DNA from: a bacterium
GTDB lineage: Bacteria; Patescibacteriota; Minisyncoccia; UBA6257; GWB1-50-10
Assembly (NCBI GenBank): GCA_030647415.1
Contig: JAUSKB010000023.1
Coordinates: forward strand, 1-48,456
Length of the DNA stretch: 48,456 nt
Direction of reading: 5' to 3'
Part shown: one piece after another, positions 5,684 through 48,456 of the stretch
Position numbering within the stretch: position 1 is the stretch's first letter
Layout: each line of letters opens with the position of its first letter
Program-made: the position numbers and the translations under genes
Notes under the pieces: model-generated
Databases searched by the model: none
Told to the model about the DNA's origin: nothing
The model's input: only the letters and a program-made list of their open reading frames with translations

Positions 5684-5687
5684 GGAA

Positions 5688-7568
5688 TTATAACTGTACG
5701 AGCGGGACCGTAAGCTCTTGCCACGAAGCTGTGGTCGAGGCGGTACCCGTCGCTATCTGGTAGCCACTCATGGTCACGGTGTAGGGGTATGAACTCCCGG
5801 CAAGCCCATCAAAATATGCTGTGTCTGGGGGAACGCACGGGCCCCGATACCCAATGCCTATCTCATTGACCTGTGGCGTCACCACGGCATTCGTGGTGGT
5901 GAGCCAAACCTGATATCGGAGATACCGGCGGTTTGTGTGGATGCCCGCGAGTGCCGTGCCACTTTCCGTATAGTAGGTGCTGGGTGTGCCGTCCGGGCCC
6001 ACGAAGGCCCAAAACGATGCGTCATCGTTCGAGGCAACCTGGAACCGGACGTTCGCACCGGCCGGCTGACTCAAAGGGTTCCACACCAGCGTCGTATATT
6101 CGGTGCTCGTACTTCCGGTATCGATAGTCTTCGAAACTAGCCACTCAGTCGAGGTAGCATATCCACCCGGACCTACCGCGAGTACGAGCGACCCCGGCAC
6201 GGTATCGGTAGATAAGGAATCGCTCTTCGAAGCATAGGCCCCGGCGGACCAATCCGTAGAACGAAGTGTGTCATATCCCGTTATCTGCGGGGCAAGCGAC
6301 ACCAGCAAAACGGTGGCATTTTGGATACCGGCGGCAGTTGCCGCATCACGTACATGAATAGCGAGAGCCCGGGATAGTGTCGGTGCAAATGAGGTACTGA
6401 ACGGCACGGTGGCAGAGGGTGCGACAGTGAGCGGCACGGCGGGCATCGTGCCGACAAGAGACCAGGTAGTGGTGGCGATGCCGACCGCATACGTGTCCCA
6501 TTCAAGACCCGTGATAGTTGCCAGGCCGTTTATGCCAGTCACGGTAGTGGTAGTGACCTTCACCACATCTGGTCCGGTTCCGATAAGCTTTGCACCCGTG
6601 AAAGTCGCGGCAACTCCCTGAAGCGGCTGGCAGGTCCGAGAAACTGCGGAAAGCCCGACCGTACTCAAGCCATCGATTGCAAACGTGATGTCGGTTAAGA
6701 CTCCAGCCGCCACCGTTGCATACGGCTTCGCCGGGTTAGGATTCCCCTGCCCGCCCACCGGGTAGGTCCGATCACTTGAATATCCTAACTTCGAGACAGT
6801 AATCTGGTATGACTGCGTTCCAGGTGGCACACCCACGAGTTGCAGTACACCATTGAGGTTGGTCGTATCAGTGAGGTCAATAGTAGGCAGCGTCGCCTCG
6901 TTCACCACCCGCACACTTGCTTCCGGCAGTGCATTTCCGTTTGCATCGATAACATGGATAAAGAGTGACCCACTTGACCCCGTTGCCTCTAAATTCGCGG
7001 GGGCGACTGTCGTCGTCATCGTAATGGGCACGAAGCGCGCACACCGGAGGCAACTCACCTCCACCTCGACCAGCTTGTAATCCGCGGGCGCGGTGTCGTT
7101 CGGGGCCCCACCCAAGGTACCATCGAAGGGGTCGTCCACATTCCGGATGGTGGTGACCACGAGGAATTCTATGGGGCCGACCGTTGAGACCTTCTGCCGG
7201 TCGAGAATACCCGCCGGGATACCGCCCAAGGTCCCCACACTGTCGTAGGGCAGGTTTCGGATAACCTCGATCTCCTGGTTCAACCGCGTGACCGAAGCCG
7301 TGCGGAGCTCGGCGTTCGTGAGTGTGTCAAGAATGGAGGAGTAGGAGAGGTATGCCCCGCCGAAAATGATGACCATGAGGCCTACCGCAATAATGAGCTC
7401 GATGAGGGATATGCCCTGCCGGGTAACCGACAACCGACCCGCCTCGCCAGACCCGCTTCGCCCGCGAAGCGAGGCGAGCGAGTGGGCGAGTCGAGGCGGG
7501 CAACCGACAACCGACAACCCGTTCGGGGTGTCTTTCGCTCGTCTCTCGTCTCTCGTCGCTCGTCTCAT
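5688..7568 (-). CDS. PilV-like minor pilin with Ig/carboxypeptidase-regulatory-like domains
   Basis: Large prepilin-type protein. The hydrophobic segment ISLIELIIAVGLMVIIFGGAYL follows a QG cleavage site at residues 51-52. After a pilin-like part with two cysteines (CLRC, about 173-176) come Ig-like regions of the carboxypeptidase-regulatory type (ANGNALPEASVRVVN, GTQSYQITVSKLGYSS, GIQNATVLLVS). A strand-rich C-terminal domain ends with SWQELTVPLVQL. The first 45 codons read through a repeat-rich stretch. The true start may instead be TTG at 7433, giving the normal leader (M)SVTRQG. It lies 4 nt before the PilW-like gene and is clearly cotranscribed with it. Confidence 0.8.
   Translation of the reverse strand: MRRATRDERRAKDTPNGLSVVGCPPRLAHSLASLRGRSGSGEAGRLSVTRQGISLIELIIAVGLMVIIFGGAYLSYSSILDTLTNAELRTASVTRLNQEIEVIRNLPYDSVGTLGGIPAGILDRQKVSTVGPIEFLVVTTIRNVDDPFDGTLGGAPNDTAPADYKLVEVEVSCLRCARFVPITMTTTVAPANLEATGSSGSLFIHVIDANGNALPEASVRVVNEATLPTIDLTDTTNLNGVLQLVGVPPGTQSYQITVSKLGYSSDRTYPVGGQGNPNPAKPYATVAAGVLTDITFAIDGLSTVGLSAVSRTCQPLQGVAATFTGAKLIGTGPDVVKVTTTTVTGINGLATITGLEWDTYAVGIATTTWSLVGTMPAVPLTVAPSATVPFSTSFAPTLSRALAIHVRDAATAAGIQNATVLLVSLAPQITGYDTLRSTDWSAGAYASKSDSLSTDTVPGSLVLAVGPGGYATSTEWLVSKTIDTGSTSTEYTTLVWNPLSQPAGANVRFQVASNDDASFWAFVGPDGTPSTYYTESGTALAGIHTNRRYLRYQVWLTTTNAVVTPQVNEIGIGYRGPCVPPDTAYFDGLAGSSYPYTVTMSGYQIATGTASTTASWQELTVPLVQL
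7434..7568 (-). repeat. Repeat-word spacer at the 5' end of the PilV-like gene
   Basis: Read on the minus strand this stretch is made of the short words GAGACGA, CGACAACC and an imperfect inverted repeat with CCCGCCTCG and CGAGGCGGG arms (7438-7500). It is open in frame with the pilin but has no Met codon and no conserved protein character. Similar words appear in the N-terminal part of pilC and in a 23S insertion (44555-44623). Confidence 0.65.
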
Positions 7569-26054: not shown

Positions 26055-27056
26055 GTGAAAATCTTGATTCTTTACAACGTGGCTAGGCAGTTGAAAAAGG
26101 GAATTGAAACTGATCTGGTCTGCGAGCAGGAAATTACCATTATCGTCCCGTTGGTCAAAAGGTTTCTCCAAAAAAATGGCTATTCGGTCCAGACGATGGA
26201 AACCGATTTCAACCTGTGGGAGAAGCTGAAGAGGAAAAAGAAGTCAGTTGACATCGTTCTGAATCTCGCCGAGGCGTTCGGAGGCGGCAATACCAACGAA
26301 ACGTTAGTTCCTGAAATGCTGGAGGCACTGGAAATTCCATTTACTGGGGCGTCGGCCCATAATATGCATCTTACTCTCGACAAAGAGAAAACCAAACTCG
26401 TCTTGGCATATTATGGCGTGCCCATACCAAAACATCAGGTATTCCGCCATCCGGAAGAGAATCTGGCCTCTGGTTTGATGTTTCCCCTGATCGTCAAACC
26501 AATCCGTGAAGAGGCGAGTATCGGCATCTATCGCGACAGCGTTGTATCCTCAAGGAAACAACTTCGCGTGAAGGTACAAACGGTCTTGAAAAACTACCGC
26601 CAACCAGCTCTGGTAGAAGAATTCATCAAGGGAAGGGAAATTTCGGTTGGTATGATTGGGAATGCTTTCGACTTCATCATTTTTCCTCCATTGGAATTCA
26701 TCTTTTCGGAAGCACAATCTCCGCTTGAACAGATTCGTTCTTACGAATACAAGTGGGGAGGCAAGAGGGAGCAAATGACCCGGGCATCCTTGCCAAGAAA
26801 AACAGTAAGGAAACTGGAGGAATACACCAGGATCGCCTACAAAGTCACTGAGTGCAGGGATTATGCGAGAATGGATTATCGCCTGGATGATGCAGGGAAT
26901 ATTTACCTCTTGGAGGTAAACTACAACCCGGGCATCGGGCCGAATACTCATGGCCTGAATAACACGCTTACTATGATGGCGAGCTTCGTGGGTATTAGTT
27001 TTGAGGATTTGGTCGAGAAGATCATTTCAATCGCTCACAAGAGATATCAGTCCTGA
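26055..27056 (+). CDS. D-Ala-D-Ala ligase-like ATP-grasp enzyme
   Basis: ATP-grasp carboxylate-amine ligase, 333 aa, starting at GTG. It has the D-Ala-D-Ala ligase layout: an N-terminal lobe with VDIVLNLAEAFGGGNTNETLVPEMLEALEIPFTG in place of the usual HGxxGEDG loop, a central lobe with LMFPLIVKPIREEASIGI, LVEEFIKGREISVGMIG, and the metal site ARMDYRLDDAGNIYLLEVNYNPG near 285-307. The substrate is not predictable. Catalytic serine-containing loops of true Ddl are altered, so a peptide or amino-acid ligase role outside peptidoglycan is more likely. The gene is more AT-rich than its surroundings and has a Shine-Dalgarno. A second, unrelated ATP-grasp enzyme follows 25 nt downstream. Confidence 0.85.
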   Translation: MKILILYNVARQLKKGIETDLVCEQEITIIVPLVKRFLQKNGYSVQTMETDFNLWEKLKRKKKSVDIVLNLAEAFGGGNTNETLVPEMLEALEIPFTGASAHNMHLTLDKEKTKLVLAYYGVPIPKHQVFRHPEENLASGLMFPLIVKPIREEASIGIYRDSVVSSRKQLRVKVQTVLKNYRQPALVEEFIKGREISVGMIGNAFDFIIFPPLEFIFSEAQSPLEQIRSYEYKWGGKREQMTRASLPRKTVRKLEEYTRIAYKVTECRDYARMDYRLDDAGNIYLLEVNYNPGIGPNTHGLNNTLTMMASFVGISFEDLVEKIISIAHKRYQS

Positions 27057-27081
27057 AAAACTACCAAGAAAGGAGGGATGT

Positions 27082-28425
27082 ATGATGATCAAGGCAATTC
27101 TGATTGCTAACACCGCAGAAGCCTTCAAAGAGATTTTGGGCAAAGATAGCCACACCAGACGGGGCAAAGAGAGAATCAATCATGAACTCACGCTTTCTCA
27201 GAGGGCGTTCTTCTGGGAAAGCGACAACAAGATTGTCGTCACACCCTACCCGATTCCTTCAGTACTCTTGGAGGCAAATAAAAGGGCGTTGGGATTTGGT
27301 AATGTGGTCAATCTGGCTCCCACAAGTGGAAGTGTTAACCTCTGCTCATCGGTCTTGGGGGATAGAAAACTTCTGAGATTGATCGCCGGAGAAATAAGGA
27401 AAAGCCGGTGCGTGGCCGTGTCTCCGTATGCCGTGACGCAGGATTTTTTGCAACTGGTTGCTGGACTCAAAGGATTAGGTCTGCAGTTTGTGGTGGAAGA
27501 GAAACCCGCAGACGCCTCTCTGTGGATCGTTTCTTATTTAGACTCCAAAGCAGGATTTCGCACAGAGATGCTGAAATTGCGGTCTGAACACGTAGAAGTG
27601 AAAGTCCCAGAGGGGTTTGTTGCACAAAATGTAGCGGAAGCTCAACGGATGGCGGAGTGGTTCTACAAAAGTGGCCGGTCGTTAGTGTTGAAGGCAAACT
27701 TCGGAGAGTCCGGGTGGGGAATAAAAATTATTCGAGAAGAAGAATACACCTCGCTCCCTGCTTTCCGAAAAGCATTTGCCACGATACTGAAGAATGATGT
27801 CATTTGGCAAAACACCAGCATTGTGGTTGAGGAGTTTGTAGATCCCGACACTGAAGTTGCCGGAGGATCTCCTTCAACTGAAATGTTAGTTACCGAACAG
27901 GGAGCTTTATTCCTCTATCACTGCGGCCAAGTGGTCAACGATGCCGGCGCATTTTTCGGAGTAGAGATTGGAAGGGGCGCACTTTCCAATTCTCTTTCAA
28001 GAAAACTGCTTGTTATCGGAAACATCATCGGTAAGCGATACTGGGAACTGGGCTATCGTGGATATTTCGACATCGATTTCATCATTTCAAAAACCGGTGA
28101 AATTTTTGTTGCAGAGACCAATACAAGGAGAACCGGCGGCACTCACGTCTATGACGCTGCAAGGCATCTCTTCGGTGGAGAATATGAAAAAGAAGCATAT
28201 CTGCTGTCTCATGATTCATTTCTCTACCACAGGAAAAGAATGTTGCCTGAGGAGCTTCTAGAGAAACTCAAGGTGATACTTTATCCTATTAAAGGAGAGA
28301 AGAAGGGTGTGATTATTACTCTAATCAGTGAATGGAGTCCGGTATTAGGGTATATCATCATTGCCTCAAACCGTTCCGAGGGCCAGAAAATGCAGCGACG
28401 GTTGCTCAGTATTTTCGACAGGTGA
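27082..28425 (+). CDS. Pre-ATP-grasp/PGM1-like ligase (second ATP-grasp enzyme)
   Basis: 447 aa. The start at 27082/27085 follows a strong AAGGAGGG Shine-Dalgarno (27070-27077). The N-terminal domain (to about 195) resembles the pre-ATP-grasp region of PGM1-type peptide ligases (KIVVTPYPIPSVLLEANKRALGF, LVAGLKGLGLQFVVEE). The ATP-grasp domain has SLVLKANFGESGWGIKII near 215-232, VVEEFVDPDTEVAGGSPS near 265-282 and the Mg site GYRGYFDIDFIISKTGEIFVAETNTRRTGG near 335-364. A C-terminal domain follows (GVIITLISEWSPVLGYIIIASNR). PGM1 joins an amino-acid derivative to a peptide; the substrate here is unknown. It is cotranscribed with the preceding ligase. Confidence 0.8.
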   Translation: MMIKAILIANTAEAFKEILGKDSHTRRGKERINHELTLSQRAFFWESDNKIVVTPYPIPSVLLEANKRALGFGNVVNLAPTSGSVNLCSSVLGDRKLLRLIAGEIRKSRCVAVSPYAVTQDFLQLVAGLKGLGLQFVVEEKPADASLWIVSYLDSKAGFRTEMLKLRSEHVEVKVPEGFVAQNVAEAQRMAEWFYKSGRSLVLKANFGESGWGIKIIREEEYTSLPAFRKAFATILKNDVIWQNTSIVVEEFVDPDTEVAGGSPSTEMLVTEQGALFLYHCGQVVNDAGAFFGVEIGRGALSNSLSRKLLVIGNIIGKRYWELGYRGYFDIDFIISKTGEIFVAETNTRRTGGTHVYDAARHLFGGEYEKEAYLLSHDSFLYHRKRMLPEELLEKLKVILYPIKGEKKGVIITLISEWSPVLGYIIIASNRSEGQKMQRRLLSIFDR

Positions 28426-28444
28426 TTGAATTGATTCTAGTTAC

Positions 28445-28480
28445 AAAACGGGTTACACTTCGCGGTGTAGCCCGTTTTTT
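28445..28480 (+). terminator. Intrinsic terminator overlapping the leader of the C39-like peptidase gene
   Basis: Stem AACGGGTTACAC with GTGTAGCCCGTT, then six Ts ending 2 nt before the ATG at 28483. It should end most transcripts of the two ligase genes, leaving the peptidase to read-through or to be expressed only when the hairpin is disrupted. Confidence 0.8.
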
Positions 28481-28482
28481 AT

Positions 28483-28989
28483 ATGAAAACAGATTTATTA
28501 CCAGTAAAACCATTTCAGGAAACTCTCCACCAGAATATGTGCGGGCCGGCAAGCCTGAAAATGGTTTTCCATTACTACGGAATTGAAAAGTCAGAACAAG
28601 AAATAGCCGAAATGTGTAATGTAGATGAAGACTTGGGAACCAACGACACAACGATTCAAAGGGTGGCTGAAGAATTGGGATTCAAGGTAAAAATAAAAAA
28701 TAATAGCACGTTTGAAGACATTCGGGCCTGGTTAGATGAAAAAGTGCCGGTGATTGTGAATTGGTTTACCAGAGGTCGATCAGATTATGATGATTCAGAG
28801 GTTGCGGATGGCCATTATTCCGTGGTTGTCGGATTAGATGAAGAATTTATTTATTTACAGGATCCAGAAATAGGAAAGTTGAGAAAGATAGAGAAAGAAG
28901 ATTTTATGAAAGTGTGGTTTGATTTTACGGGGAAATATATAAACCCAGATGAGTTGATTATTAGACAGCTTATTGCTATTTCCAAATGA
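28483..28989 (+). CDS. C39-like cysteine peptidase
   Basis: 168-aa soluble protein with the layout of peptidase family C39: Cys in LHQNMCGPASLKMVFHYYGI (about residue 21), His in VADGHYSVVVGLDEE (near 105) and Asp in IYLQDPEIGKLRK (near 121). The oxyanion Gln lies just before the Cys. It is a free-standing domain with no transporter. In peptide natural-product systems such enzymes cut leader peptides, but the same fold also occurs in general peptidases. It lies behind a terminator after the two ligase genes. No precursor-peptide ORF is visible nearby. Confidence 0.82.
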   Translation: MKTDLLPVKPFQETLHQNMCGPASLKMVFHYYGIEKSEQEIAEMCNVDEDLGTNDTTIQRVAEELGFKVKIKNNSTFEDIRAWLDEKVPVIVNWFTRGRSDYDDSEVADGHYSVVVGLDEEFIYLQDPEIGKLRKIEKEDFMKVWFDFTGKYINPDELIIRQLIAISK

Positions 28990-29170: not shown

Positions 29171-29192
29171 GAGGGCGGCATGTGCCGCCCTC
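29171..29192 (-). terminator. Terminator of the kinase-phosphatase operon
   Basis: 10-bp stem GAGGGCGGCA/TGCCGCCCTC followed on the minus strand by TTCTTTTTAT, 15 nt after the kinase stop. Confidence 0.85.
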
Positions 29193-29206: not shown

Positions 29207-30943
29207 CTACCTACTGCTATTCATGCGGAGCGACCACACCTCGCCTCGCTGAATATAGGTGACCAGATCCCCCCAGTTCGAGAGGATCATATCGGTCGCG
29301 ATTTGTCTGTCCTCGACTTTCGTAACGCTGCCGCTCGTCGGAGCGAATACGGCTAACGTACCGTCCTCGAGTATCGTCGCGCAAACCCCTTTCGGGAGTA
29401 TGGCGAGATTCAATTCCGGCCCATCAGTTACACCGCTCCACACCTTATATGACGAATAATCGTGATTGAAGGTGAGCTCTATCTTCTGGTAGGTTCCGCT
29501 CTTATCGATGTAGATGAGCGAAACAAAACGGTTTCCTGCCTTGCCGGCGATCACCTGCACACCGTCTAACTCGCGAACTCGCGTTTGCGTTACTGCGGCA
29601 TCGCCGAACGGTGCAATGACAAACTTCGCACCCATCGCATCAATGACACCGCATCCATCAAACCACTTTGTTGAATTCACAAGGATACCCCACGTTTGCC
29701 CAGCGGAAGCTATCACTCGGTCGCCAAGCTGCGTACACTTGATTTCCATGAGACCCTGGTCCGTCACCCCAAACATTCGATTTTCATATCCGACGAGCTG
29801 ACGAACCTTCACTGAAAACGGGAGGATCTCGCTACGTAAACCTCCATCTCGAATAAACTCAAGACGCACTGACCCGCGCTCAACCCATCCGGCGAGCCAC
29901 CCCTTTCTGACGCGTATGACTTCGCAATCACTCGAGGCTACTGTCATACTATGCTGTCTCGTCGCTAGATCTACGAGTTTATTAGATGCGAGGAGTGCTA
30001 ACCCACAAGGAAAAATCCGTGTTGCTTCGTCTCCCGGAAATCCGAAAAGCTTCTCATATACAAGCATTCCCGATGCTGCCGTAGTAACGACACGAAGCAC
30101 CTGGATCGCCCGTGGAGTCGCAAGAGCCTTGTCGAATGGCGACGGTGGTTCCGTACGCTCACCTTTCTGGAACGTCGCTTCGTACCAACTAAGCAACGAA
30201 GTGGGAATGCACGAGAAATCCCGCACCGCCTGATTCAACCTGACGCCAGGCGTGAACACTGAAGCATTCGCTCGCATCCGATTCTCAAGGTCTCCCCTCG
30301 CGTATCCGTCTAACGTACCCTTGTATGGATGGATGCCGGTGTACACCTGGAACGTGACGACCCCCCAAGCAAACCAATCGGTTCGCTCGTCGAATTTTTT
30401 GGCATGCCAATCGCGCACTGACGGCATGACCACCGTCGGTGGCCACCTGCCGATCGACCACGAGTCTACGTCGACTATGCGGGGATCGGGATCACCACCA
30501 GTGAACTGCGCGAACCAGTTGAGCTCGTTCGGATCGACCAGAATCGCCTTGTGCCCATGAGCGAAGACGAACACTTCGCGCATGCGATCGACGAGCGTCG
30601 AGGCGTGCTTCGAGGTGAATTTCTCACGTCGATGGAATTCCGTGGTGAACACGCGCGCGAGCGGGTGCCCATCGACATATGGCATGTAGTACCCTACCGG
30701 ACCTTTGGCCGAATCAACCGCAAGCCCTCGGGGTGCCACAATGCATCGGTGCTGAAGGACCGTGAGCGCCTTGATCTTGTCGATCATGCCGCTCTTCGCC
30801 ATCTTTCCGGGATCCGTGTAGATCTTTACGACCATATCCGAAACCCTATAGATGGAACCCTCCCCGCCGGTCGCGACGTGATCGCTTGGACGGAGCGTCA
30901 CCGGCCCCTTGCCCTCAAGCGTGACCTGTATGGCACCGCTCAT
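29207..30943 (-). CDS. YegI-like protein kinase with C-terminal propeller-like domain
   Basis: 578 aa. The kinase domain (about 1-300) has Gly loop VATGGEGSIYRV and Lys in MVVKIY. The catalytic loop is FAHGHKAILVDPNELNW in place of HRD, and RIVDVDSWSI replaces DFG; both are characteristic of YegI-type kinases that pair with PP2C phosphatases. The C-terminal half (from about 330) has WD-like repeated strands (SNKLVDLATRQHSMTVASSDCEV, WGDLVTYIQRGEVWSLRM) and is probably a beta-propeller sensor. The ATG at 30943 overlaps the phosphatase stop (ATGA) and is preceded by GAGGAGG; the longer reading is rejected. With the phosphatase and vWA genes it forms a TerY-P/Yeg triad. Confidence 0.8.
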   Translation of the reverse strand: MSGAIQVTLEGKGPVTLRPSDHVATGGEGSIYRVSDMVVKIYTDPGKMAKSGMIDKIKALTVLQHRCIVAPRGLAVDSAKGPVGYYMPYVDGHPLARVFTTEFHRREKFTSKHASTLVDRMREVFVFAHGHKAILVDPNELNWFAQFTGGDPDPRIVDVDSWSIGRWPPTVVMPSVRDWHAKKFDERTDWFAWGVVTFQVYTGIHPYKGTLDGYARGDLENRMRANASVFTPGVRLNQAVRDFSCIPTSLLSWYEATFQKGERTEPPSPFDKALATPRAIQVLRVVTTAASGMLVYEKLFGFPGDEATRIFPCGLALLASNKLVDLATRQHSMTVASSDCEVIRVRKGWLAGWVERGSVRLEFIRDGGLRSEILPFSVKVRQLVGYENRMFGVTDQGLMEIKCTQLGDRVIASAGQTWGILVNSTKWFDGCGVIDAMGAKFVIAPFGDAAVTQTRVRELDGVQVIAGKAGNRFVSLIYIDKSGTYQKIELTFNHDYSSYKVWSGVTDGPELNLAILPKGVCATILEDGTLAVFAPTSGSVTKVEDRQIATDMILSNWGDLVTYIQRGEVWSLRMNSSR

Positions 30944-31839
30944 GGCGCCTCCTCTCTGCCACCCTCGTGGTCGATATGGATCGCCGCAAGCGCGATGTCG
31001 TCGACGGGACCGACACCAAAGCGCTTTGAGTCCTTGATGCCCCAATTCACCCGTCGCTTCACGAATTCCCCGGCGGTCGTCTTGAACGCGAGGAACTCAA
31101 CCACGGCATCTTGCCAACCCATGCCGGCAATCTGCGTGATGCCATCGGTGAGCACCGCGATGAAACGCAATCGCAGCAACTCCTCGGCGGAAATCGGGAT
31201 GGTGATGCCAGAGATCCCGTCACGGAGCGCATACCGAACCATCACAGACTCAGCCTGGGCACCTTCGGGCGCCGATGGGCGAAGAATCGATTCCGATCCG
31301 TATCGTGGCGCGTCAAGGTCCCCGCCATGCCGTCGGACAAAACTCTCAAGATCGACGCCATCATACTCATACCATGGGTAGAATGGCGTGTTGTCATCCC
31401 AGTCGAATCTCGTCATTCGCAACGAACCGTCGAGATACTTCATCGCGACGACGCCATCCCCTCTCACATGAACCACGCCACCGTCATTCGCGACATACGC
31501 ATACGCGCACGTCGCGTACATGTCTCGGGATTTGACGCCAAGGATGTCGAGCGACGGACGAAGTTCCGAGAAGGTCGCTGCCTGTCGCGCGCTGATGGCT
31601 TCCATGGCTCCCTGCGTCGACCCTGGACACGACTTCGCGTGCGCCCGAATCGCCTCAAGGGTCAGGAACGAGACGATGCGCGCACCTACGTCGGTGTATC
31701 CGCCTGTCGAACATCCGTCGGACACGATGGCGCACGCCGCACTGGAACCTGCGCTTGAGAGCGCATAGTCCTGGCATATCTTCCCACCGGTGTAATGCGA
31801 ATGGCCGATCTGAAAGTGATGATCTGCTGAAAGAATCAT
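30940..31839 (-). CDS. PP2C-family protein phosphatase
   Basis: 299 aa. PPM/PP2C metal-binding motifs are readable: CAIVSDGCSTGG (about 36-47), VHVRGDGVVAMKYL, RFIAVLTDGITQIAG and VDDIALAAIHI at the C-terminus. There is no membrane segment. It should dephosphorylate targets of the kinase encoded immediately downstream, whose start overlaps its stop codon. It is preceded by an AAAGGAG Shine-Dalgarno and by a stem-loop at 31870-31893 in the gap after the vWA gene. Members of this class occur with YegI kinases (E. coli YegK). Confidence 0.85.
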   Translation of the reverse strand: MILSADHHFQIGHSHYTGGKICQDYALSSAGSSAACAIVSDGCSTGGYTDVGARIVSFLTLEAIRAHAKSCPGSTQGAMEAISARQAATFSELRPSLDILGVKSRDMYATCAYAYVANDGGVVHVRGDGVVAMKYLDGSLRMTRFDWDDNTPFYPWYEYDGVDLESFVRRHGGDLDAPRYGSESILRPSAPEGAQAESVMVRYALRDGISGITIPISAEELLRLRFIAVLTDGITQIAGMGWQDAVVEFLAFKTTAGEFVKRRVNWGIKDSKRFGVGPVDDIALAAIHIDHEGGREEAP

Positions 31840-31869
31840 GTTGCTACTCCTTTCCTGTGGATATACGGA

Positions 31870-31893
31870 AAGGGCGGTGTTGCCACCGCCCTT
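31870..31893. other. Stem-loop between vWA and phosphatase genes
   Basis: Perfect 10-bp stem AAGGGCGGTG/CACCGCCCTT, loop TTGC. The T-run (CTTTTTATTT) is on the plus-strand side only, so on the operon strand it is more likely a processing or stability element than a terminator. Confidence 0.5.
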
Positions 31894-31914
31894 CTTTTTA
31901 TTTCGAGTGGCCCC

Positions 31915-32673
31915 CTATATGGTGGCCGCGATCGCCTGGCTCGGCCCACCGGTCCCGATGGCCTGTGACTGGCTCGACACAGACTGAGAGACGAACTCGG
32001 CGAGCTTTGCGAGCTTACCCTTCGTCGCGTCCCCGATGTCTATGTATTTGAGATCAGCCTCGGTCGCGAATCGCTGAAGCTCCTTGGTGTGTAGCTTCGC
32101 ATTGACCCCGATGAGGATCGGAACCAAGGACTCGATATCCTCCCCCTTCTGCCCACGATCGATCTCCGCACGGATCATCCGAGGTGTCGAGGACGACGCA
32201 TTGTCGTCACCGTCAGTAAGGACGAACACGATACCGTTCGCGAGGAAGTTCTGTGACATAAGCTGCTTTGCGTAGGCGTTCGTCGCGCCAACGCCGGAAT
32301 ACACGGCGTCGAAAAGCGGCGTCATGCCACCCGTTTTGAGAGGCTGATACGCACCTGGATCGATCTCCCCAAGCGGCTTGAAACCATGAATCTCCTCGAT
32401 GCCGCCACTCAATGACGAGGAGAACAGGATGAGGCGCAACAGCAGATTGTTCGACCGTGGCGACTTCTTGCAGCTCTCCACAGCCGTCTGAAGACACTTG
32501 AGGAGGTCATCCGCAAAGTCGTCTACAGAGCCGGTTACGTCCACCGCGATGGTCACGAGCGTGTACTCGGTTGCGCCGAGATGCTCGATGCGCGTCGCGG
32601 AAAAATGGAACCCCTTCCCGCTCCCGATCTGCATGTTCTCCATGCTCGGATCGATGTTGCTCAAACGTGGCAT
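31915..32673 (-). CDS. TerY/YegL-like von Willebrand factor A protein
   Basis: 252 aa with a vWA domain covering most of the length. The MIDAS residues are readable: TIAVDVTGSVDDFA (about 40-53), a Thr in LKTGGMTPLFDAVY and Asp in FVLTDGDDNASS. TerY-like proteins act as metal-dependent scaffolds with PP2C phosphatases and kinases (TerY-P triad). The Shine-Dalgarno is GAAAGGAGAT. It lies between pncA (16 nt upstream) and the phosphatase gene (75 nt downstream), so the triad is cotranscribed with NAD salvage. Confidence 0.85.
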   Translation of the reverse strand: MPRLSNIDPSMENMQIGSGKGFHFSATRIEHLGATEYTLVTIAVDVTGSVDDFADDLLKCLQTAVESCKKSPRSNNLLLRLILFSSSLSGGIEEIHGFKPLGEIDPGAYQPLKTGGMTPLFDAVYSGVGATNAYAKQLMSQNFLANGIVFVLTDGDDNASSSTPRMIRAEIDRGQKGEDIESLVPILIGVNAKLHTKELQRFATEADLKYIDIGDATKGKLAKLAEFVSQSVSSQSQAIGTGGPSQAIAATI

Positions 32674-32689
32674 AGGCTTACATCTCCTT

Positions 32690-33517
32690 TCAGTTCAGAA
32701 AATCGGTGGATGTGGCGACGGTCATTCCCCGTCGTTGCATATTGACCAGGAACTCCTGAGCAATCTGAGGGAAATCGATTCCCGGGAGTGCGCCGACCGG
32801 AGACATGCAATCCTTCAAGAGGTGGAACTTCTTGATGTGCTCATCGCCGATGTTGTCGGCGATCTGTTCTACGGTTTTCAAGACGCAATGCGAGGACGCC
32901 TCGCCGGCGACCGCCACGATGTCCGCCCCTGCGAGCATGTTGAGGAAATCGGTGTTGAGCGCTGTGCTCGCGTCGGTGGGGTCAGGAACCTCTGCCATGA
33001 GTGCCCCGTAGTGCTCGGTCCATGGGTTTGACCCCTTGGTCACATAGTCGACCATGGCGAATTCCCTTCCGGACCATTCTTGCAGCGCCTCGTTCAAGTC
33101 AGGGTGGACGTTATGCCCCCACGTGCCGATCAGGCAATGCGTCGGCCAAATACAGATTTTGTAGTGGCCGGGGCGGGCCTCGAGCGCATTCGCGTACGCA
33201 ACCATGCGGGCGCGATGCCCTGGATCCCTCGTCGTCCAGATGCCGGCCCTGATATCCGCCTCTGAGATGATGGTGAACGGTTTTGGTACCTCGCCATTCT
33301 GATCCATCCACATTGCCGCGTGACCTACATCGATCAAACGATGGCTGTCGAGCGTAACGTGAATGTCGTCCAACTTCCTACCGATACGCCGCACAAGCTG
33401 CGCTGTTTGCTTCATATCAGCATCGGCACCCGGCACCGGCAACATGGCACGGGGAATGTCGCAGAAATCGTTCTGTGGGTCGATGATGACAAGATGAATC
33501 TTCAGCCTCTTTCCCAT
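32690..33517 (-). CDS. pncA: Nicotinamidase (isochorismatase-like hydrolase)
   Basis: 275 aa. Converts nicotinamide to nicotinate. Asp of HLVIIDPQNDF (about 10-17), the metal-binding TLDSHRLIDVGH region near 60, and the nucleophile Cys in VAGEASSHCVLKTVEQI near 210 are all in place. It is longer than bacterial PncA (about 210) because of extra segments around 95-175, which resembles some larger nicotinamidases. The start at 33517 is preceded by AAAGGAG; the 33613 reading would extend through the promoter. It is the first gene of the leftward unit and divergent from the Nudix, pncB, nadE unit. Confidence 0.85.
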   Translation of the reverse strand: MGKRLKIHLVIIDPQNDFCDIPRAMLPVPGADADMKQTAQLVRRIGRKLDDIHVTLDSHRLIDVGHAAMWMDQNGEVPKPFTIISEADIRAGIWTTRDPGHRARMVAYANALEARPGHYKICIWPTHCLIGTWGHNVHPDLNEALQEWSGREFAMVDYVTKGSNPWTEHYGALMAEVPDPTDASTALNTDFLNMLAGADIVAVAGEASSHCVLKTVEQIADNIGDEHIKKFHLLKDCMSPVGALPGIDFPQIAQEFLVNMQRRGMTVATSTDFLN

Positions 33518-33584
33518 ACTGCTTCTCCTTTTTATGGGTTTATGAAATAGGTTCCTGTTGACCAGTGAACCAGTTGCTGGCGCG

Positions 33585-33613
33585 ATTTTATTACATATAT
33601 GGAATTGTGTCAA
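33585..33613 (-). promoter_or_regulatory. Leftward promoter of the pncA-triad operon
   Basis: TTGACA (33608-33613), a 17-nt spacer and TAAAAT (33585-33590), a near-consensus sigma-70 promoter. Confidence 0.75.
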
Positions 33614-33632
33614 TGTTTTAGTCGCTCAAAAA

Positions 33633-33651
33633 AGTTGACTTTATGTCAACT
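33633..33651. promoter_or_regulatory. Inverted repeat between divergent NAD-salvage units (candidate operator)
   Basis: Perfect 7-bp arms AGTTGAC and GTCAACT around 5 nt. The left arm contains the -35 box of the rightward promoter and it lies 20 nt upstream of the leftward -35, so one protein could control both directions. No regulator gene is recognised nearby. Confidence 0.6.
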
Positions 33652-33664
33652 AATGATTTAGAAT
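33635..33664 (+). promoter_or_regulatory. Rightward promoter of the Nudix-pncB-nadE operon
   Basis: TTGACT (33635-33640), an 18-nt spacer and TAGAAT (33659-33664), about 57 nt before the ATG at 33722. Confidence 0.65.
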
Positions 33665-33721
33665 ATTCCCAGCAATTTCCACACAATTCACTTATATTCC
33701 ACATACGAAAGGGTAAAACCA

Positions 33722-34270
33722 ATGAGGCGATTCAAACCGTTATACCACGGGCGTTTTCTTGATGTCGTCCAGCACCATCAAACCGGTTTCGAGGTGGTGA
33801 GAACCACCAACTCCGTCGCGGTACTCGTCTATATCATCGGCGAGGGACTACTGCTCGTGAAGCAGCGACGCCCGGCAATGATCCGCAAGGGGAACCGATA
33901 CGGATGGATCACCGAGACAGTCGCGGGGCGAAGGGACCGAAAGCTCACCCTGAAACACCTCGCATCGAGTGAGATTAGGGAGGAGACGGGGTGCGCCATC
34001 AAGCCGAAGGACATTAAAATCCTAAACGGCGGAAAAGCGCTTGCCCTCTCCCCAGGAGCGCTCACCGAGCGGATATGGCTTGCGTACGCGGAGATTCCTC
34101 GAAAGCGGGTCAGCAACCGCTGGAACAAGATCTTCGGAGTCGATACGGATGAACGGACAGAACGTGTGTTGGTACCGCTCGCCTCGCTCGAGAAGATGAA
34201 ATTCACCGACATGAAAACCTTCGCGGTGGTGCAATGGTTCCTGCGCAGCCAGACATGGAAAGGGGCCTGA
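33722..34270 (+). CDS. Nudix hydrolase
   Basis: 182 aa; a pyrophosphohydrolase related to ADP-ribose pyrophosphatases. The Nudix box reads GRRDRKLTLKHLASSEIREE then TG, so the catalytic EIREETG part is intact. The first Glu of the consensus (GX5E) is Leu and the Arg of REXXEE is Ser, which makes substrate assignment uncertain. The strand preceding the box (YGWITETVAG) is typical. The context, an operon with pncB and nadE, suggests a role in recycling ADP-ribose or checking NAD-type nucleotides. The Shine-Dalgarno is AAAGGG. It overlaps the start of pncB. Confidence 0.83.
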   Translation: MRRFKPLYHGRFLDVVQHHQTGFEVVRTTNSVAVLVYIIGEGLLLVKQRRPAMIRKGNRYGWITETVAGRRDRKLTLKHLASSEIREETGCAIKPKDIKILNGGKALALSPGALTERIWLAYAEIPRKRVSNRWNKIFGVDTDERTERVLVPLASLEKMKFTDMKTFAVVQWFLRSQTWKGA

Positions 34271-35538
34271 CATTGAAAGCAGACAAACCGATTATCAAAT
34301 CGTTCCTGTGGCAGGACTTCTACAAGTTCACCATGGGATACTTCGTGTATCATCTGTACAAGGACGTGACGGTGCGATACGCGTTCAAGAACCGGACGAC
34401 GGGTATCCACATCGGGAACCTCATCGACATCGGGGCCCTCAAGGAGGAGTTGGACCACGTCCGGACTCTGCATATCACGAGGTCGGAACACCACTACCTT
34501 CGCGGGACGTTCGAATACGGGAACAAGATGTTCTCGGACGACTACCTCGACTTTCTCCGCGATATCACAATGCCGGACTACCACTTCGAGGTGGTCGACG
34601 GTCAGATCGCTCTTGAATTCGAGGGTCCCTGGAGCACGGCGATCTACTGGGAGATATTCGCCCTGGTAATCGTACAAACGCTCCTGGGCCGTGCCGTCCT
34701 CAAACGCCATTCGCGATTCGAATTGGATGCGGTGCGCGCAGAGGGCGTACGGAGACTCGCCGATAAGATAGCCATACTGAAGACGCGGCCGGACATCATA
34801 TTCTCTGATTTCGGGACCAGGCGGGCATTCAGCCCGGAATGGCAGGAATACGTCGTCGGAGCGCTCTCTGAAGAGCTTCCCGGCGGATACCAATTCCTCG
34901 GAACGTCGAACGTGTGGCTCGCGATGCAGTATGGGCTCCTGCCTATGGGCACCGACGCGCATGAACGCACGATGGTTATCGCAGCGCTTATGGATAATGA
35001 CCCGGAAGGCAATGGGGTTCGGGCAGCCATCAGTACCGCAACCCAGCAATGGTGGGACCTGTATAACTATGGACTTTCCATCGCGCTTCCAGACACGTTT
35101 GGGACCGACGCCTTCCTTCGCTCGTTCACGCCGGCTCAGGCATACACATGGAAGGGGTTCCGGCAGGATTCTGGCGATCCGCTCGATATCATTGGAAACA
35201 AGTATATTCCCTTCTATCGCCAGTGCGGCATGAACGACGGGGAGATACGTGGGAAGTTAGCTATTCCGAGCGACGGACTCGAATTGCCGCTTATGACCAA
35301 AATCACGGATACGTTCAAAGACGTAGTTCGGATATCGAGCGGCTGGGGCACGAACCTCACCAACGACCTGGGGCTCAAAACCCTCTCGATCGTCATCAAG
35401 GTAGTCAGTGCGAACGGCCGCGGGACGGTGAAACTCTCCGATAATCCCACGAAGGCGATGGGAAGGTCAGAGGATATCGCCCGGTACATGAAGATCTTCG
35501 TGTACGGAGCGCACGATTCGGTGGAATGCAAATACTAG
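34255..35538 (+). CDS. pncB: Nicotinate phosphoribosyltransferase
   Basis: About 427 aa. Makes nicotinate mononucleotide from nicotinate and PRPP. It follows E. coli PncB closely: LWQDFYKFTMGY at the N-terminus, GTSNVWLAMQYGLLPMGTDAHE with the active-site His, FRQDSGDPLDIIGNKYI, SSGWGTNLTNDLGLKTLSIVIKV and a C-terminal KLSDNPTKAMG. Starts are possible at 34234, 34255 or TTG 34273; the last follows AAGGGG at a good distance and only 2 nt after the Nudix stop. It is ended by a perfect palindrome (35544-35573) before nadE. Confidence 0.92.
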   Translation: MERGLTLKADKPIIKSFLWQDFYKFTMGYFVYHLYKDVTVRYAFKNRTTGIHIGNLIDIGALKEELDHVRTLHITRSEHHYLRGTFEYGNKMFSDDYLDFLRDITMPDYHFEVVDGQIALEFEGPWSTAIYWEIFALVIVQTLLGRAVLKRHSRFELDAVRAEGVRRLADKIAILKTRPDIIFSDFGTRRAFSPEWQEYVVGALSEELPGGYQFLGTSNVWLAMQYGLLPMGTDAHERTMVIAALMDNDPEGNGVRAAISTATQQWWDLYNYGLSIALPDTFGTDAFLRSFTPAQAYTWKGFRQDSGDPLDIIGNKYIPFYRQCGMNDGEIRGKLAIPSDGLELPLMTKITDTFKDVVRISSGWGTNLTNDLGLKTLSIVIKVVSANGRGTVKLSDNPTKAMGRSEDIARYMKIFVYGAHDSVECKY

Positions 35539-35543
35539 CAATC

Positions 35544-35573
35544 GGTAGAGACGGGCATATGCCCGTCTCTACC
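35544..35573. terminator. Perfect 30-bp palindrome after pncB
   Basis: Each half is GGTAGAGACGGGCAT and its complement, with no unpaired loop by sequence. No U-run follows. A further hairpin (CTCACGAGA/TCTCGTGAG, 35585-35619) lies before nadE. The pair may tune expression between pncB and nadE. Confidence 0.6.
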
Positions 35574-35682
35574 ACCTGTTTTCTCACGAGAGCGCCGAAC
35601 GCCGGCATTCTCGTGAGGGAGCACGAGCGTTCTCCCTCAGTCGTTTCACAATCACATACGAAAACCTAAGAAAGGATATCTC

Positions 35683-37641
35683 ATGCGGTATAAGAATTTT
35701 GGATTCGTGCGCGTCGCTGCGGCGGTGCCAAAGGTAACAATTGGCGACCCGCTGGCGAATGTTGAGCATATGCTACAGCTCGCCACTAGAGCATATACGC
35801 AGGGTGTGCAGGTACTCGCCTTCCCTGAGCTGGGCCTAACCGGATACTCGTGCGGGGACATGTTCTCGCAGGAGCTACTACTCGACACTACGCTGGACGC
35901 GCTCTTCCACTTCACTACGACGACGGCGCGATACAACACGCTGTATGTCGTCGGATTGCCGATGCGCATCGACGGCCAGCTCTATAACGTCGCTGCCTTC
36001 GTCGCAAACGGAAGCATCCTCGGGATCGTGCCGAAAGGACACATCCCGAACTACAAGGAGTTCCAGGAAGACCGCTGGTTCCGTCCAGGGACGGAGCTGC
36101 GCGTTGATATCGCGGCGCTTAATTCGCCGGATGGTATGCCATACCAGGTTCCGGCCGGCATGAACATCATCATCGACGTCGAGAACCTTCCCGGCCTCAT
36201 GGTCGGTGCGGACATCTGCGAAGACATCTGGATGCCTATGTCGCCTGGCGAACGCCACGCGCTCCACGGGGCAACCTTGCTGGTGAATATCTCAGCTTCG
36301 AACGATACGGTGGGCAAGTCAGACTTCCGCCGCCTTCTCGTGAACTCGAGGTCAGGGAAATGTGTCGCCGGGCAGATATATGTGTCCTGCGGGCCGTGGG
36401 AGTCATCCGCGGAGACGGTGTTTGGAGGCGACGCGATGATCAGCGCAAATGGGACGGTCGTTGCGGGATCGAAGCGATTCAGCTTCGAGCCTCAGCTCAT
36501 CGTCGCCGACGTTGACGTTGCGGCACTCACACGCGAGCGGACCCAGACGGGCACCTTCGGAGCCGCTTCGGCACTAGAGCGCGCGGAGTACGTTGTAGTC
36601 CCCTGCTCTATTGGAGAGCTTGATCTCTCAAACAGCTTCCGCATACCAGTGGATCCGTTTCCTTTCGTTCCGTCCGATCCTGCGACGCGCGATGCTCGAT
36701 GCGAAGAGGTGTTCAGCATCCAGATGACCGGCCTCATCCGCCGATTACTCCACGTTTTCAAGGGGAGGACGCCTACCGTAACCATTGGGATCTCCGGTGG
36801 GCTTGATTCCACACTGGCACTGCTTGTTCTGGTGAAGGCGTACCTGCACATAGGGTGGGACCTCAAGGGTATTATCGCGGTCACCATGCCGGGTCCGGGT
36901 ACGAAGTCACGAACGCTGAAAAACGTGTTCCGACTCTGTACGGCGCTCGGCATCACGGTGCGGAAGATACCAATCACTAGGGCGGTGACGCGCCACCTCA
37001 GAGACATCGGACACGAACCATGCTGGGCATGCCTCACCTGCGAGAACGCCCAGGCACGTGAGCGGACCAAGATCCTCATGGACCTTGGCTTCATGATCAA
37101 TACCGGCGACCTATCAGAGGGCATACTCGGGTGGTGTACCTACGGCGGAGATCAGGATGGCATGTATGCCGTAAACGCAGGAGTCCCCAAGACGCTCGTC
37201 CGGCACATTGTTGGCTGGGAGGCAAACCACCAACAAGCTAACATTCGGAAGATTCTCAAGGACATCTTGGAAACACCTATCTCACCCGAGCTGACCAAAG
37301 CGGTGCAACAAACAGAGTCAAGGATCGGTCCATACGCGCTACACGACTTCTTCATCTGGCACATGTTTCGTCATGGATCATGGCCTGAGAAGATTCTCTT
37401 CCTTGCTGAGGTTGCCTTTGAGGGGACATACAGCCGCGAGATAATCCTGAAGTGGATGCTCGTGTACTATGAGCGATTCTTCGGAAACCAGTTCAAGCGG
37501 GACGCGTCGCCGAATGGCCCAAAGATCGGGGCGGTAAGCATCTCGCCGCGAGGCGACCTCAGGATGCCCTCAGATATGGAGGGTAGGCTCTGGGTAGACG
37601 AGGTGATGCGTCTGGGGGCTAATCCACCAGACAACGAGTGA
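35683..37641 (+). CDS. nadE: Glutamine-dependent NAD+ synthetase
   Basis: 652 aa two-domain enzyme that amidates nicotinate adenine dinucleotide to NAD. The nitrilase-type glutaminase domain (about 1-300) has Glu in AFPELGLTGYSCGD, Lys in VPKGHIPNYKEF and Cys in VGADICEDIWMP. The synthetase domain (from about 345) has the PP-loop GISGGLDSTLALLVL, followed by TGDLSEGILGWCTYGGDQDGMYAVNAGVPKT. Length and layout match the large bacterial (mycobacterial-type) NadE. The Shine-Dalgarno is AAAGGAT, 6 nt before the ATG. It is the last gene of the rightward unit and is followed by a strong terminator. Confidence 0.95.
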   Translation: MRYKNFGFVRVAAAVPKVTIGDPLANVEHMLQLATRAYTQGVQVLAFPELGLTGYSCGDMFSQELLLDTTLDALFHFTTTTARYNTLYVVGLPMRIDGQLYNVAAFVANGSILGIVPKGHIPNYKEFQEDRWFRPGTELRVDIAALNSPDGMPYQVPAGMNIIIDVENLPGLMVGADICEDIWMPMSPGERHALHGATLLVNISASNDTVGKSDFRRLLVNSRSGKCVAGQIYVSCGPWESSAETVFGGDAMISANGTVVAGSKRFSFEPQLIVADVDVAALTRERTQTGTFGAASALERAEYVVVPCSIGELDLSNSFRIPVDPFPFVPSDPATRDARCEEVFSIQMTGLIRRLLHVFKGRTPTVTIGISGGLDSTLALLVLVKAYLHIGWDLKGIIAVTMPGPGTKSRTLKNVFRLCTALGITVRKIPITRAVTRHLRDIGHEPCWACLTCENAQARERTKILMDLGFMINTGDLSEGILGWCTYGGDQDGMYAVNAGVPKTLVRHIVGWEANHQQANIRKILKDILETPISPELTKAVQQTESRIGPYALHDFFIWHMFRHGSWPEKILFLAEVAFEGTYSREIILKWMLVYYERFFGNQFKRDASPNGPKIGAVSISPRGDLRMPSDMEGRLWVDEVMRLGANPPDNE

Positions 37642-37658
37642 GGTGAGTTATCACAACA

Positions 37659-37688
37659 AACCCCGGCATATGCCGGGGTTGCTTTTTT
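37659..37688 (+). terminator. nadE terminator
   Basis: Palindrome AACCCCGGCATATGCCGGGGTT followed by GCTTTTTTG. Confidence 0.92.
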
Positions 37689-47311: not shown

Positions 47312-48456
47312 GTTCCAGCTCATTGAAACTGTTACCGAGCGAGGAGTGTATAGCTCATAAATGGGTTACCGTGGTCACCTATGACCATGGAAACAAGGAA
47401 GGAGATATTTGATGAGTTCAAAGCGGCGTACTGGAGTGGTTCCCGAGCGGAGAAGGGCGAGATCCTGGATCACGTCTGCGCGGTGATGCAGCTACATCGC
47501 AAAGCGGCGATACGGAGGTTTGCCGCCCTGCAAATGCGCGATCCACTCCGAGAAGACGGCCGCGGTCGGTCTGCCTACTACACGCCTGATGTGACCGCTG
47601 CCCTCAAAGACATCTGGGAAGCGGGTGACGAGGTCTGTGGGGAGCTCTTGCACCCGCAGATCGCCGAGTACGTCGCTATACTCCGGCGGGATCACCTGTG
47701 GGCGCATCCCGACCTGACGACCCGAAAGCTCCTCACGATGAGTGAGGCGACCGTGAAGCGGCGCGTGGGATGCTTTCTCAAAGCGCGCCGCACCAAGCAC
47801 GGCATCACGACAACCAGACCGTCGCATATCAAGCACCTCGTGCCAATCTTCATCGGCCCCTGGAAGGACAAGCCACCCGGGTTCGGGCAGATAGATACCG
47901 TACTCCACAGCTCGAGCGCCTCGGGAGACGCGGTCTATACAGTCAATTTCACTGATGCCGCTACGCTCGCGGTGGTTCCGTATGCCCAGTGGAATAAGGG
48001 TCAGGAAACCACGCGGGAGAGCATGTGGGCGATTCGGGAGCGGATGCCGTTTCCCCTCTTAGGTGCACACCCGGACACGGGGAGCGAGTTCATCAATCGG
48101 ATGGTCATGGATTGGTGCCGCGAGGAACATATCGACCTCTCGCGGAGCCGTCCGAACCATAAGAACGACAACATGTATGTCGAGGAGCGGAATGGCCACG
48201 TCATCCGGAAGACCGTCGGGTATATCACCCTAGACTGCCGGGAGGCGGTGGATGCACTGAATCGGGTGTACGACGTGCTCGCGCCCTACCGCTTCCACTT
48301 TATTGCCGTGAGGAGAATGGTCGAGAAGGAGAAGCTATCATCACGGTACCGCAGGGTGTATGAACAGACGCCGAAGACCCCCTACCGGCGGACGCTGGAA
48401 CATCCGGCGGTGTCGGAAGAGATTAAAACCAAACTCCGTGCGGTGCATGAAACCTT
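47312..48456 (+). mobile_element. Insertion sequence, right copy (3' end outside the window)
   Basis: The first 137 nt equal the reverse complement of the window start. The element begins GTTCCAGCTCATTGAAACTG and carries one DDE transposase gene. The right end is not in the window, so terminal repeats cannot be compared. Confidence 0.85.
47387..48456 (+). CDS. DDE transposase with integrase core (partial at 3' end)
   Basis: 357 codons to the window edge without a stop. The N-terminal part (to about 150) is helical and DNA-binding in character (VMQLHRKAAIRRFAALQ, LTTRKLLTMSEATVKRRVG). The rve-type core has Asp170 in GFGQIDTV, Asp230 in AHPDTGSEF and Glu266 in YVEERNGHVIRK, so the triad is D-59-D-35-E. 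The downstream region includes AVDALNRVYDVLAPYRFHF. The IS family is not assigned. ATG at 47381 is an alternative start; a palindrome (GTGGTCA/TGACCAT) lies immediately before. Confidence 0.88.
   Translation, partial: METRKEIFDEFKAAYWSGSRAEKGEILDHVCAVMQLHRKAAIRRFAALQMRDPLREDGRGRSAYYTPDVTAALKDIWEAGDEVCGELLHPQIAEYVAILRRDHLWAHPDLTTRKLLTMSEATVKRRVGCFLKARRTKHGITTTRPSHIKHLVPIFIGPWKDKPPGFGQIDTVLHSSSASGDAVYTVNFTDAATLAVVPYAQWNKGQETTRESMWAIRERMPFPLLGAHPDTGSEFINRMVMDWCREEHIDLSRSRPNHKNDNMYVEERNGHVIRKTVGYITLDCREAVDALNRVYDVLAPYRFHFIAVRRMVEKEKLSSRYRRVYEQTPKTPYRRTLEHPAVSEEIKTKLRAVHET

Follow-up and report, generated by a model that had tools for sequence, protein, structure and literature searches.

TerY-P triads, in which a vWA protein, a PP2C-like phosphatase and a Ser/Thr kinase are encoded by adjacent genes and the kinase is fused at its C-terminus to a zinc ribbon or an OB-fold, are widespread (Anantharaman 2012 and Gao 2020, as recounted in PMC11090510), and TerY-P modules are tested antiphage systems (Gao et al. 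2020, as recounted in PMC11090510 and PMC7699616; PMC10889362). What these triads sense and control is, however, unsettled. E. coli carries the related proteins YegI (kinase), PphC (phosphatase) and YegL (vWA). Two other known systems bear on the locus analysed here: the NrtR-linked NAD salvage loci (pncA-pncB-nadE), and NARP1, a phage pathway (Adps and Namat) that rebuilds NAD from nicotinamide by ADPR-PP ligation (PMC12774641). To our knowledge, no Ser/Thr phospho-switch that gates NAD salvage has been described in bacteria or phages. By title and start of abstract, none of the papers listed by full-text literature searches is on a nicotinamidase with a kinase-phosphatase-vWA triad (PMC9503650, PMC7824862 and PMC7162821 were searched for terms only).

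We analysed a stretch of 48,456 nucleotides (the window; contig C7 of a 0.96 Mb draft genome in 38 contigs), for which an earlier note had proposed that a nicotinamidase gene shares an operon with a TerY-P/Yeg-like triad, divergently from further NAD salvage genes. This observation is confirmed: all seven genes are where the note placed them. The order pncA-vWA-PP2C-kinase forms one tight minus-strand operon, and Nudix, pncB and nadE lie divergently on the plus strand. The nicotinamidase-like PncA (32690..33517, minus strand, 275 aa) matches its Pfam and NCBIfam models only weakly (26.6 bits with a cut-off of 27, and 27.3 bits with a cut-off of 174), but aligns with solved nicotinamidases, yeast Pnc1 and another, over the catalytic set. 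The Asp-Lys-Cys triad (D13, K161, C211) and the Asp-His-His metal site (D57, H59, H127) are kept, as they are in at least 90% of 101 aligned rows with a vWA (window included) and of 34 rows without triad genes. The vWA protein (31915..32673, minus strand, 252 aa) has no Pfam match, and the kinase (29207..30943, minus strand, 578 aa) only a sub-threshold Pkinase match; predicted models of both show those folds, the vWA model being judged without a search against a fold library. The MIDAS residues of the vWA (D45, S49, T118, D154) are invariant, and its C-terminal helix (residues 218-241) carries S231 and S236, invariant in 86 rows, and S229, conserved in over 90%. The phosphatase (30940..31839, minus strand, 299 aa) matches PF13672 (48.5 bits), and D24, D41, G42, D128, G129, D232, D280 and D281 are the same in 100% of 100 rows. 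The kinase has a Hanks-type domain (about residues 1-275), with G26, G27, K40, D137, N142 and D158 invariant in 75 rows, and a predicted all-beta, propeller-like C-terminal domain (about residues 290-578).

On the plus strand, PncB (nicotinate phosphoribosyltransferase, 34234..35538) scores above the NCBIfam cut-off of TIGR01514 (272.5 against 269.55 bits), and NadE (glutamine-dependent NAD synthetase, 35683..37641) above that of NF002730 (727.6 against 473). The Nudix-type protein (33722..34270, 182 aa) is only a distant match to TIGR00052 (ADP-ribose pyrophosphatase-like; 40.6 bits, below the cut-off of 79.55). It was considered as a possible NrtR, but it has no winged helix. pncA and vWA are 16 nt apart, vWA and PP2C 75 nt apart, and PP2C and kinase overlap by 4 nt (ATGA). 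Nudix and pncB overlap by 37 nt if pncB starts at ATG 34234, or are separated by 2 nt if it starts at TTG 34273, which by eye has the better ribosome site. pncA starts at 33517 and the kinase at 30943, rather than at the longest-ORF starts.

The pncA and Nudix starts are 204 nt apart, and this divergent control region (33518..33721) contains facing promoter-like sites, one for pncA-vWA-PP2C-kinase (33585..33613, minus strand, TTGACA-17-TAAAAT, 11 of 12 matches) and one for Nudix-pncB (33635..33664, plus strand, TTGACT-18-TAGAAT, 10 of 12 matches). These are consensus matches only, and the number of such sites in the region (8) is not above that in shuffled sequences (5.5, sd 2.5). A perfect palindrome, GTTGACtttatGTCAAC (33634..33650), covers the plus-strand -35 box and is a candidate operator; it is the only match in the window, with 0.12 expected when up to 1 mismatch is allowed, although the pattern was chosen after it had been seen. 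A conserved operator was not supported, because the relaxed palindrome was found in 4 of 229 loci, two of them copies of the window, L079 and L116 several kb from pncA. Terminator-like hairpins follow the kinase gene (29171..29192, minus strand) and nadE (37659..37680, plus strand). A further one (35544..35573, plus strand) lies in the 144-nt gap between pncB and nadE, so nadE may not share the Nudix-pncB transcript.

To see whether the arrangement recurs, we searched viral, genome and phage collections with profiles seeded from five loci and rebuilt from first-round hits. The best 80 of 98 viral and the best 80 of at least 541 genome-collection relatives were kept, so that the fractions below apply to the nearest relatives, near-copies included, and genes beyond a contig end or the fetched flank count as misses. 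Among loci with all four genes, the order pncA-vWA-PP2C-kinase on one strand holds in 64 of 66 viral, 37 of 38 genome-collection and 3 of 3 phage-collection loci, huge phages included. The same cassette recurs in tiny groundwater bacteria, other bacteria and huge phages. The reciprocal search, by the vWA alone, returned pncA beside it in 35 of 36 viral loci, the exception (locus L203) being a 6.2 kb contig with the vWA at 777-1520, at a contig end. Of 244 genomes of the order, 4 have the vWA (E ≤ 1e-10) and all 4 have pncA beside it. This reciprocal linkage rejects a chance neighbourhood. pncA and vWA stay together also where PP2C-kinase lies in front (2 of 66 viral loci, and the distant loci L010 and L011 with the order kinase-pncA-vWA), which points to a PncA-vWA couple. 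In a sample of the phylum, PncA matches were found in 9 of 379 genomes, only 4 of them strong (E below 1e-40), so the cassette is rare there. The earlier note had named two conditions that would count against its reading, a neighbourhood not conserved in any relative, or separate promoters and regulators for pncA and the triad; the neighbourhood is conserved far beyond this genome, and the consensus scan showed no minus-strand promoter-like site between pncA and the triad.

The interpretation offered in the note is partly supported. The proposed TerY-P/Yeg link holds at the sequence level for two of the three proteins: in a 12-protein set, our kinase profile matched YegI (62.6 bits, E 1.7e-20; the comparison was with YegI, not with a TerY-P kinase itself) and our phosphatase profile matched PphC (28.2 bits), while the vWA matched YegL only weakly (7.0 bits). 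YegL has serines at a similar spacing in its tail, as aligned by eye. However, the kinase profile matches YegI only up to residue 225, no pncA is annotated in the 22 kb around the E. coli genes, and the C-terminus of our kinase is predicted to consist of about 290 residues of almost only strands (pLDDT mostly above 90), rather than the zinc ribbon or OB-fold of TerY-P. The PADLOC model STK_OB was matched by 1 of 71 kinases, at E 0.0068. The identity of the beta domain did not emerge from the searches: the fold-search rows cover the kinase part, a sequence search of the C-terminal part alone gave one match at E 0.39, and "propeller" is inferred from strand count. In BFVD, one phage protein (Myoviridae sp. 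ctNQV2 kinase) aligns over the length with E 1.3e-24, but with a TM of 0.41.

These similarities raise the alternative that the triad is a TerY-P-like defence or stress signalling system that targets other proteins, with pncA a fellow traveller that removes nicotinamide, an inhibitor of NAD-using enzymes, or supplies NAD. Kinases of other defence systems match our kinases as domain relatives (mad6, 40 of 71, best E 5.2e-10; PD-T4-6, up to 38 of 71), and the window kinase matches NCBIfam MAD6 at 19.1 bits, far below the cut-off of 460. On the other hand, no PADLOC family was matched by more than 1 of 86 vWAs, and so tight a link to pncA is odd for a fellow traveller. We consider this alternative unlikely. 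Less likely still, the PncA-like enzyme might act on another amide, for example a signal read by the beta domain of the kinase, and be the signal-processing enzyme of the triad rather than its target. In line with this, PncA is longer than the solved nicotinamidases it matches (275 aa against chains of 180-235 aa) and falls below the Pfam and NCBIfam cut-offs. However, its nicotinamidase residue set is complete, the solved relatives are nicotinamidases, and pncB, nadE or NrtR lie beside the same family in triad-less loci too.

pncB, nadE, NadD-like genes and the NAD regulator NrtR recur near the cassette. Of the 38 full cassettes in the genome collection, 27 have pncB, nadE or NrtR in the fetched flank and 11 show no other NAD gene or NrtR. 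However, in 35 of the 80 genome-collection pncA loci no triad gene is near, and 20 of these 35 still have pncB, nadE or NrtR, indicating that the NAD link follows PncA with or without the triad, and that the triad is not needed for the enzyme. The PncA positions that separate the two groups are few (D51, T160, S163) and confounded by ancestry. NrtR-linked loci share the PncA family, PncB, NadE and NrtR with the cassette, but those seen here in Betaproteobacteria mostly lack the triad. A search with PF21906 found no NrtR in the window genome, though its relatives G042 and G060 have it near pncA. The note had called the salvage route near-complete, which it is: PncA, PncB and NadE are present, but no NadD was found in this draft genome with PF01467, TIGR00482 or a third query (A3), although PF01467 and TIGR00482 detect it in 14 of 14 control genomes. 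A divergent NadD was not found with the methyltransferase-fused protein of locus L004 either, in a single-sequence query without a positive control.

Our preferred explanation, to which we assign a probability of about 0.5, is a dedicated phospho-switch for nicotinamide salvage. In this view PncA would make nicotinate from nicotinamide, the entry step to NAD through PncB, a NadD and NadE, and the vWA protein would be its regulatory partner, with the C-terminal helix and its conserved serines as the likely phosphoacceptor (or docking site). The kinase, whose C-terminal all-beta domain is the likely sensor, a role that rests on predicted structure alone, would phosphorylate it when the NAD/nicotinamide state changes, and the PP2C enzyme would reset it. 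The switch would thereby set PncA activity or its assembly with the other salvage enzymes. In the window both units would start from one divergent region with a candidate operator, while in many cellular relatives NrtR sits near the cassette, so that transcription and phosphorylation would act as two layers. The sequence analysis establishes the cassette, its order and recurrence, the homologies, the conserved catalytic residues and the presence of NAD genes nearby; the hydrolysis of nicotinamide, the protein that is phosphorylated, what is sensed, the effect on PncA, and every other regulatory step are inferred. If correct, protein phosphorylation would be a layer of control over NAD salvage in small-genome bacteria. 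Since this subfamily comes with one near-constant, assayable enzyme, it makes the question of what TerY-P-like triads sense and control directly testable.

The note had further suggested that the locus may sense or restore NAD after its depletion by NAD-consuming defence systems. This remains a conjecture, made plausible by the presence of the cassette in huge phages whose records also hold NAD synthase, NAPRTase and NadD-fold genes. In whole records of 23 pncA-bearing huge phages, considered without a size-matched set of huge phages lacking this pncA, we found NAD synthase in 21, NAPRTase in 16, CTP_transf_like in 20, and all three in 14. Of the 20 viral contigs of at least 200 kb, 14 have the full triad in the fetched flank, 2 only the vWA and 4 no triad gene. 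In the phage collection, a PncB query found 23 and a NadE query 36 of 50,697 records; large phages not among the four pncA-bearing records also carry nadE (for example Bacillus phage G and cyanophages). Viral and cellular PncAs intermix on the tree, with at least 8 label changes forced by well-supported branches. The finding also points to a deamidating NAD-building route in huge phages, relevant to NAD-depleting immunity. As an alternative to the preferred explanation, the cassette, with pncB, NadD-like and nadE genes, might serve counter-defence in phages, rebuilding NAD from the nicotinamide released by NAD-cleaving defences, with the triad sensing infection stress and turning the route on; cellular copies might do the same after attack, or have been exchanged with phages. 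NARP1 is a precedent for phage NAD reconstitution (PMC12774641 and PMC13232231), though the route here would be deamidating, with PncB, NadD-like and NadE, and adds a phospho-signalling triad. We regard this alternative as unlikely on present evidence, which is from sequence alone, and the window copy sits among chromosomal housekeeping-type genes of like composition; the carriage of nadE by large phages not among the pncA-bearing records also speaks against it. A broader and more tentative possibility, somewhat less likely than not, is a previously undescribed phosphorylation-controlled NAD salvage module shared by huge phages and ultra-small bacteria, in which a kinase with a built-in propeller-like metabolite sensor and a PP2C phosphatase would switch a vWA-bound nicotinamidase on when NAD is cleaved, as in attack by NAD-depleting immunity.

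A 24-protein neighbour "cluster" proved to be an antisense-ORF artefact, and a 29-locus nadE cluster mixes NadE with NadD-like proteins and was therefore not used as a count. A PADLOC search gave no hit at E 0.001 for the seven proteins described here or for the C39 peptidase; only RecQ matched, as a helicase. An island of foreign DNA was also rejected, because the GC content of the cassette genes (0.55-0.59) matches that of the window (0.565), in which the low-GC stretches are 26-29 kb and 41-42 kb.

The window is contig C7 of a 0.96 Mb genome assembled in 38 contigs (99.65% complete). Between positions 29207 and 37641 it contains genes for a kinase, a PP2C phosphatase, a vWA protein and PncA on the minus strand, and for a Nudix protein, PncB and NadE on the plus strand. 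Choosing the starts by ribosome sites placed those of pncA, vWA, PP2C and kinase at 33517, 32673, 31839 and 30943, respectively, with gaps of 16 and 75 nt and a 4-nt overlap between successive genes. The two units diverge from a 204-nt region that contains facing promoter-like sites and a perfect palindrome, and a terminator-like hairpin stands between pncB and nadE. A further strong hairpin, at 31870-31893 between the vWA and PP2C genes, has a T-run on its plus-strand side, and may block antisense transcripts or tune expression of PP2C and kinase. The flanks look chromosomal, and the composition of the cassette is that of the window. Beside the cassette lies a low-GC stretch (26055-28989) with two ATP-grasp genes (one a D-Ala-D-Ala ligase-type match) and a C39-type peptidase, possibly a peptide-modifying cluster. 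A protein encoded at 47381-48456 and cut by the contig end gave a sub-threshold match to the integrase core (rve), a sign of a mobile element at the assembly break.

The product of pncA is a long nicotinamidase, whose catalytic and metal residues align with those of yeast Pnc1 and are kept in relatives both with and without the vWA-PP2C-kinase triad. The vWA protein has an intact MIDAS site and a confident model (pLDDT 92), ending in a helix (residues 218-241) that carries S229, S231, S233 and S236, followed by a low-confidence tail. The kinase model (pLDDT 94.6, pTM 0.92) is a Hanks-type kinase (Z about 19 to PknB and BRAF over residues 4-275) followed by about 290 residues of nearly pure predicted beta structure, propeller-like by strand count, for which no fold match of its own was found. 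The catalytic residues are invariant in 75 kinases. In G042, a genome of the same order as the window genome, the kinase and its beta domain are encoded by two ORFs that overlap by 4 nt (L004, the cassette contig of G042, 5319-6020 and 6017-7078), suggesting that the two domains may be separable, or, alternatively, a sequencing frameshift.

To find out whether the cassette recurs, we first searched with the vWA protein, which returned relatives in two other families of the order (genomes G042 and G060) and in three viral contigs; all five have pncA, vWA, PP2C and kinase in this order, the kinase being split in G042. A search with a nicotinamidase alignment then found 98 viral relatives and at least 541 in the genome collection, of which the best 80 of each were analysed. 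With rebuilt profiles, the full triad was found near pncA in 66 of 80 viral and 38 of 80 genome-collection loci, while 7 of 80 and 35 of 80, respectively, had no triad gene. Order and strand agree in 64 of these 66 and 37 of these 38 loci, and in 3 of 3 loci from the phage collection. Full cassettes in the genome collection are mostly from Patescibacteria (Brennerbacteria, Zambryskibacteria, Kaiserbacteria, Lloydbacteria, Moraniibacteriota and others), with Bradyrhizobium isolates, Myxococcota, Acidobacteriota, an Actinomycetota bin and a Lokiarchaeota bin among the rest. In the reverse search, with vWA as the query, pncA was found in 35 of 36 viral loci, with all three triad genes in 32 of 36, and beside the vWA gene in all 4 of the 244 genomes of the order that have it (for one of these, G522, the 3.6 kb seen contained neither PP2C nor kinase). 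After removal of near-copies at 85% PncA identity, 84 of 138 PncAs have the full triad, 53 of them viral. ORFs that by eye look like GIY-YIG homing endonucleases lie within or beside the phage cassettes (3924-4658 in locus L007 and 1931-2698 in locus L006). Distant relatives of the vWA protein are also encoded in Microbacterium and Rhodococcus phages (loci L022, 6046-6678, and L023, 6025-6636): 59 phage records match the vWA of L007 (54 Microbacterium, 2 Rhodococcus and 3 uncultured), several beside genes annotated as DNA ligase; the PncA queries match none of the Microbacterium or Rhodococcus phages.

On a PncA tree of 138 rows, viral and cellular sequences mix (18 changes by parsimony, 8 forced by well-supported branches). 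In the part of the tree that was inspected, the triad-less PncAs lie mostly in Betaproteobacteria and in a Rhodopseudomonas group beside triad-bearing relatives, with some triad-less viral and deltaproteobacterial rows elsewhere. This distribution suggests losses of the triad, although the root of the tree is not fixed.

In the genome collection, pncB is near pncA in 39, the gene for NrtR in 43 and nadE in 27 of 80 loci; Pfam matches were used to check NrtR in two of the loci. At least one of these three genes is near 27 of 38 full cassettes and near 20 of 35 triad-less pncAs, so the link to NAD follows PncA rather than the triad. NadD-like proteins are encoded near several cassettes. In the viral loci, pncB is seen in 19 and nadE in 20 of 80. 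Among 23 whole records of at least 200 kb that contain this pncA, NAPRTase is present in 16, NAD synthase in 21 and the NadD-fold family in 20, with all three in 14; four of the NAPRTase matches, however, are weak and may be of the Nampt type, and PF01467 also covers other nucleotidyltransferases. Of the 20 of these records that are IMG/VR contigs, 14 have the full triad in the flank analysed, 2 have only the vWA gene and 4 have none, while in the three phage-collection records a kinase match was also found, partial in LR756500. For scale, a PncB query finds 23 and a NadE query 36 of 50,697 phage records, by another method and without size matching.

PncA and vWA stay adjacent where PP2C and kinase lie elsewhere, so PncA-vWA looks like the regulated pair and PP2C-kinase like the eraser and the writer. 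In this view the conserved serines of the vWA helix, seen by eye at the same spacing in E. coli YegL, are the candidate acceptor, and the beta domain is the candidate sensor. While the cassette, its order and its recurrence are observed directly, every regulatory step in this scheme is inferred, and it counts against the scheme that many relatives use the same PncA without the triad.

Published TerY-P triads consist of the same three gene types, with the kinase fused to a zinc ribbon or an OB-fold, and the latter are antiphage systems (PMC11090510, PMC10889362, PMC7699616). Our kinase and PP2C profiles match E. coli YegI and PphC clearly, and the vWA profile matches YegL weakly. Kinases of other defence systems match as domain relatives (mad6 in 40 and PD-T4-6 models in up to 38 of 71 kinases), whereas the TerY-P-type model STK_OB matches 1 of 71. 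We regard the system as a TerY-P-like variant, and not as TerY-P itself. Full-text literature searches, which did not reach most subscription papers, returned no paper on the cassette.

It also counts against the proposed scheme that the genome that contains the window has no NrtR and that, although PncA, PncB and NadE are present, no NadD-type gene was found in it by three queries. The adenylylation step may be performed by an unrecognised enzyme, or, alternatively, its gene may lie in an assembly gap. Near a pncA-family hit in each of three loci (L004, 1082-2470, plus strand; L015, 1-1239, minus strand; L017, 2296-3210, plus strand) we found proteins with an N-terminal part that by eye resembles NadM-type adenylyltransferases and with a methyltransferase domain (by Pfam for L004 and L015), without a PF01467 match there, which are possibly a divergent NMN/NaMN adenylyltransferase.
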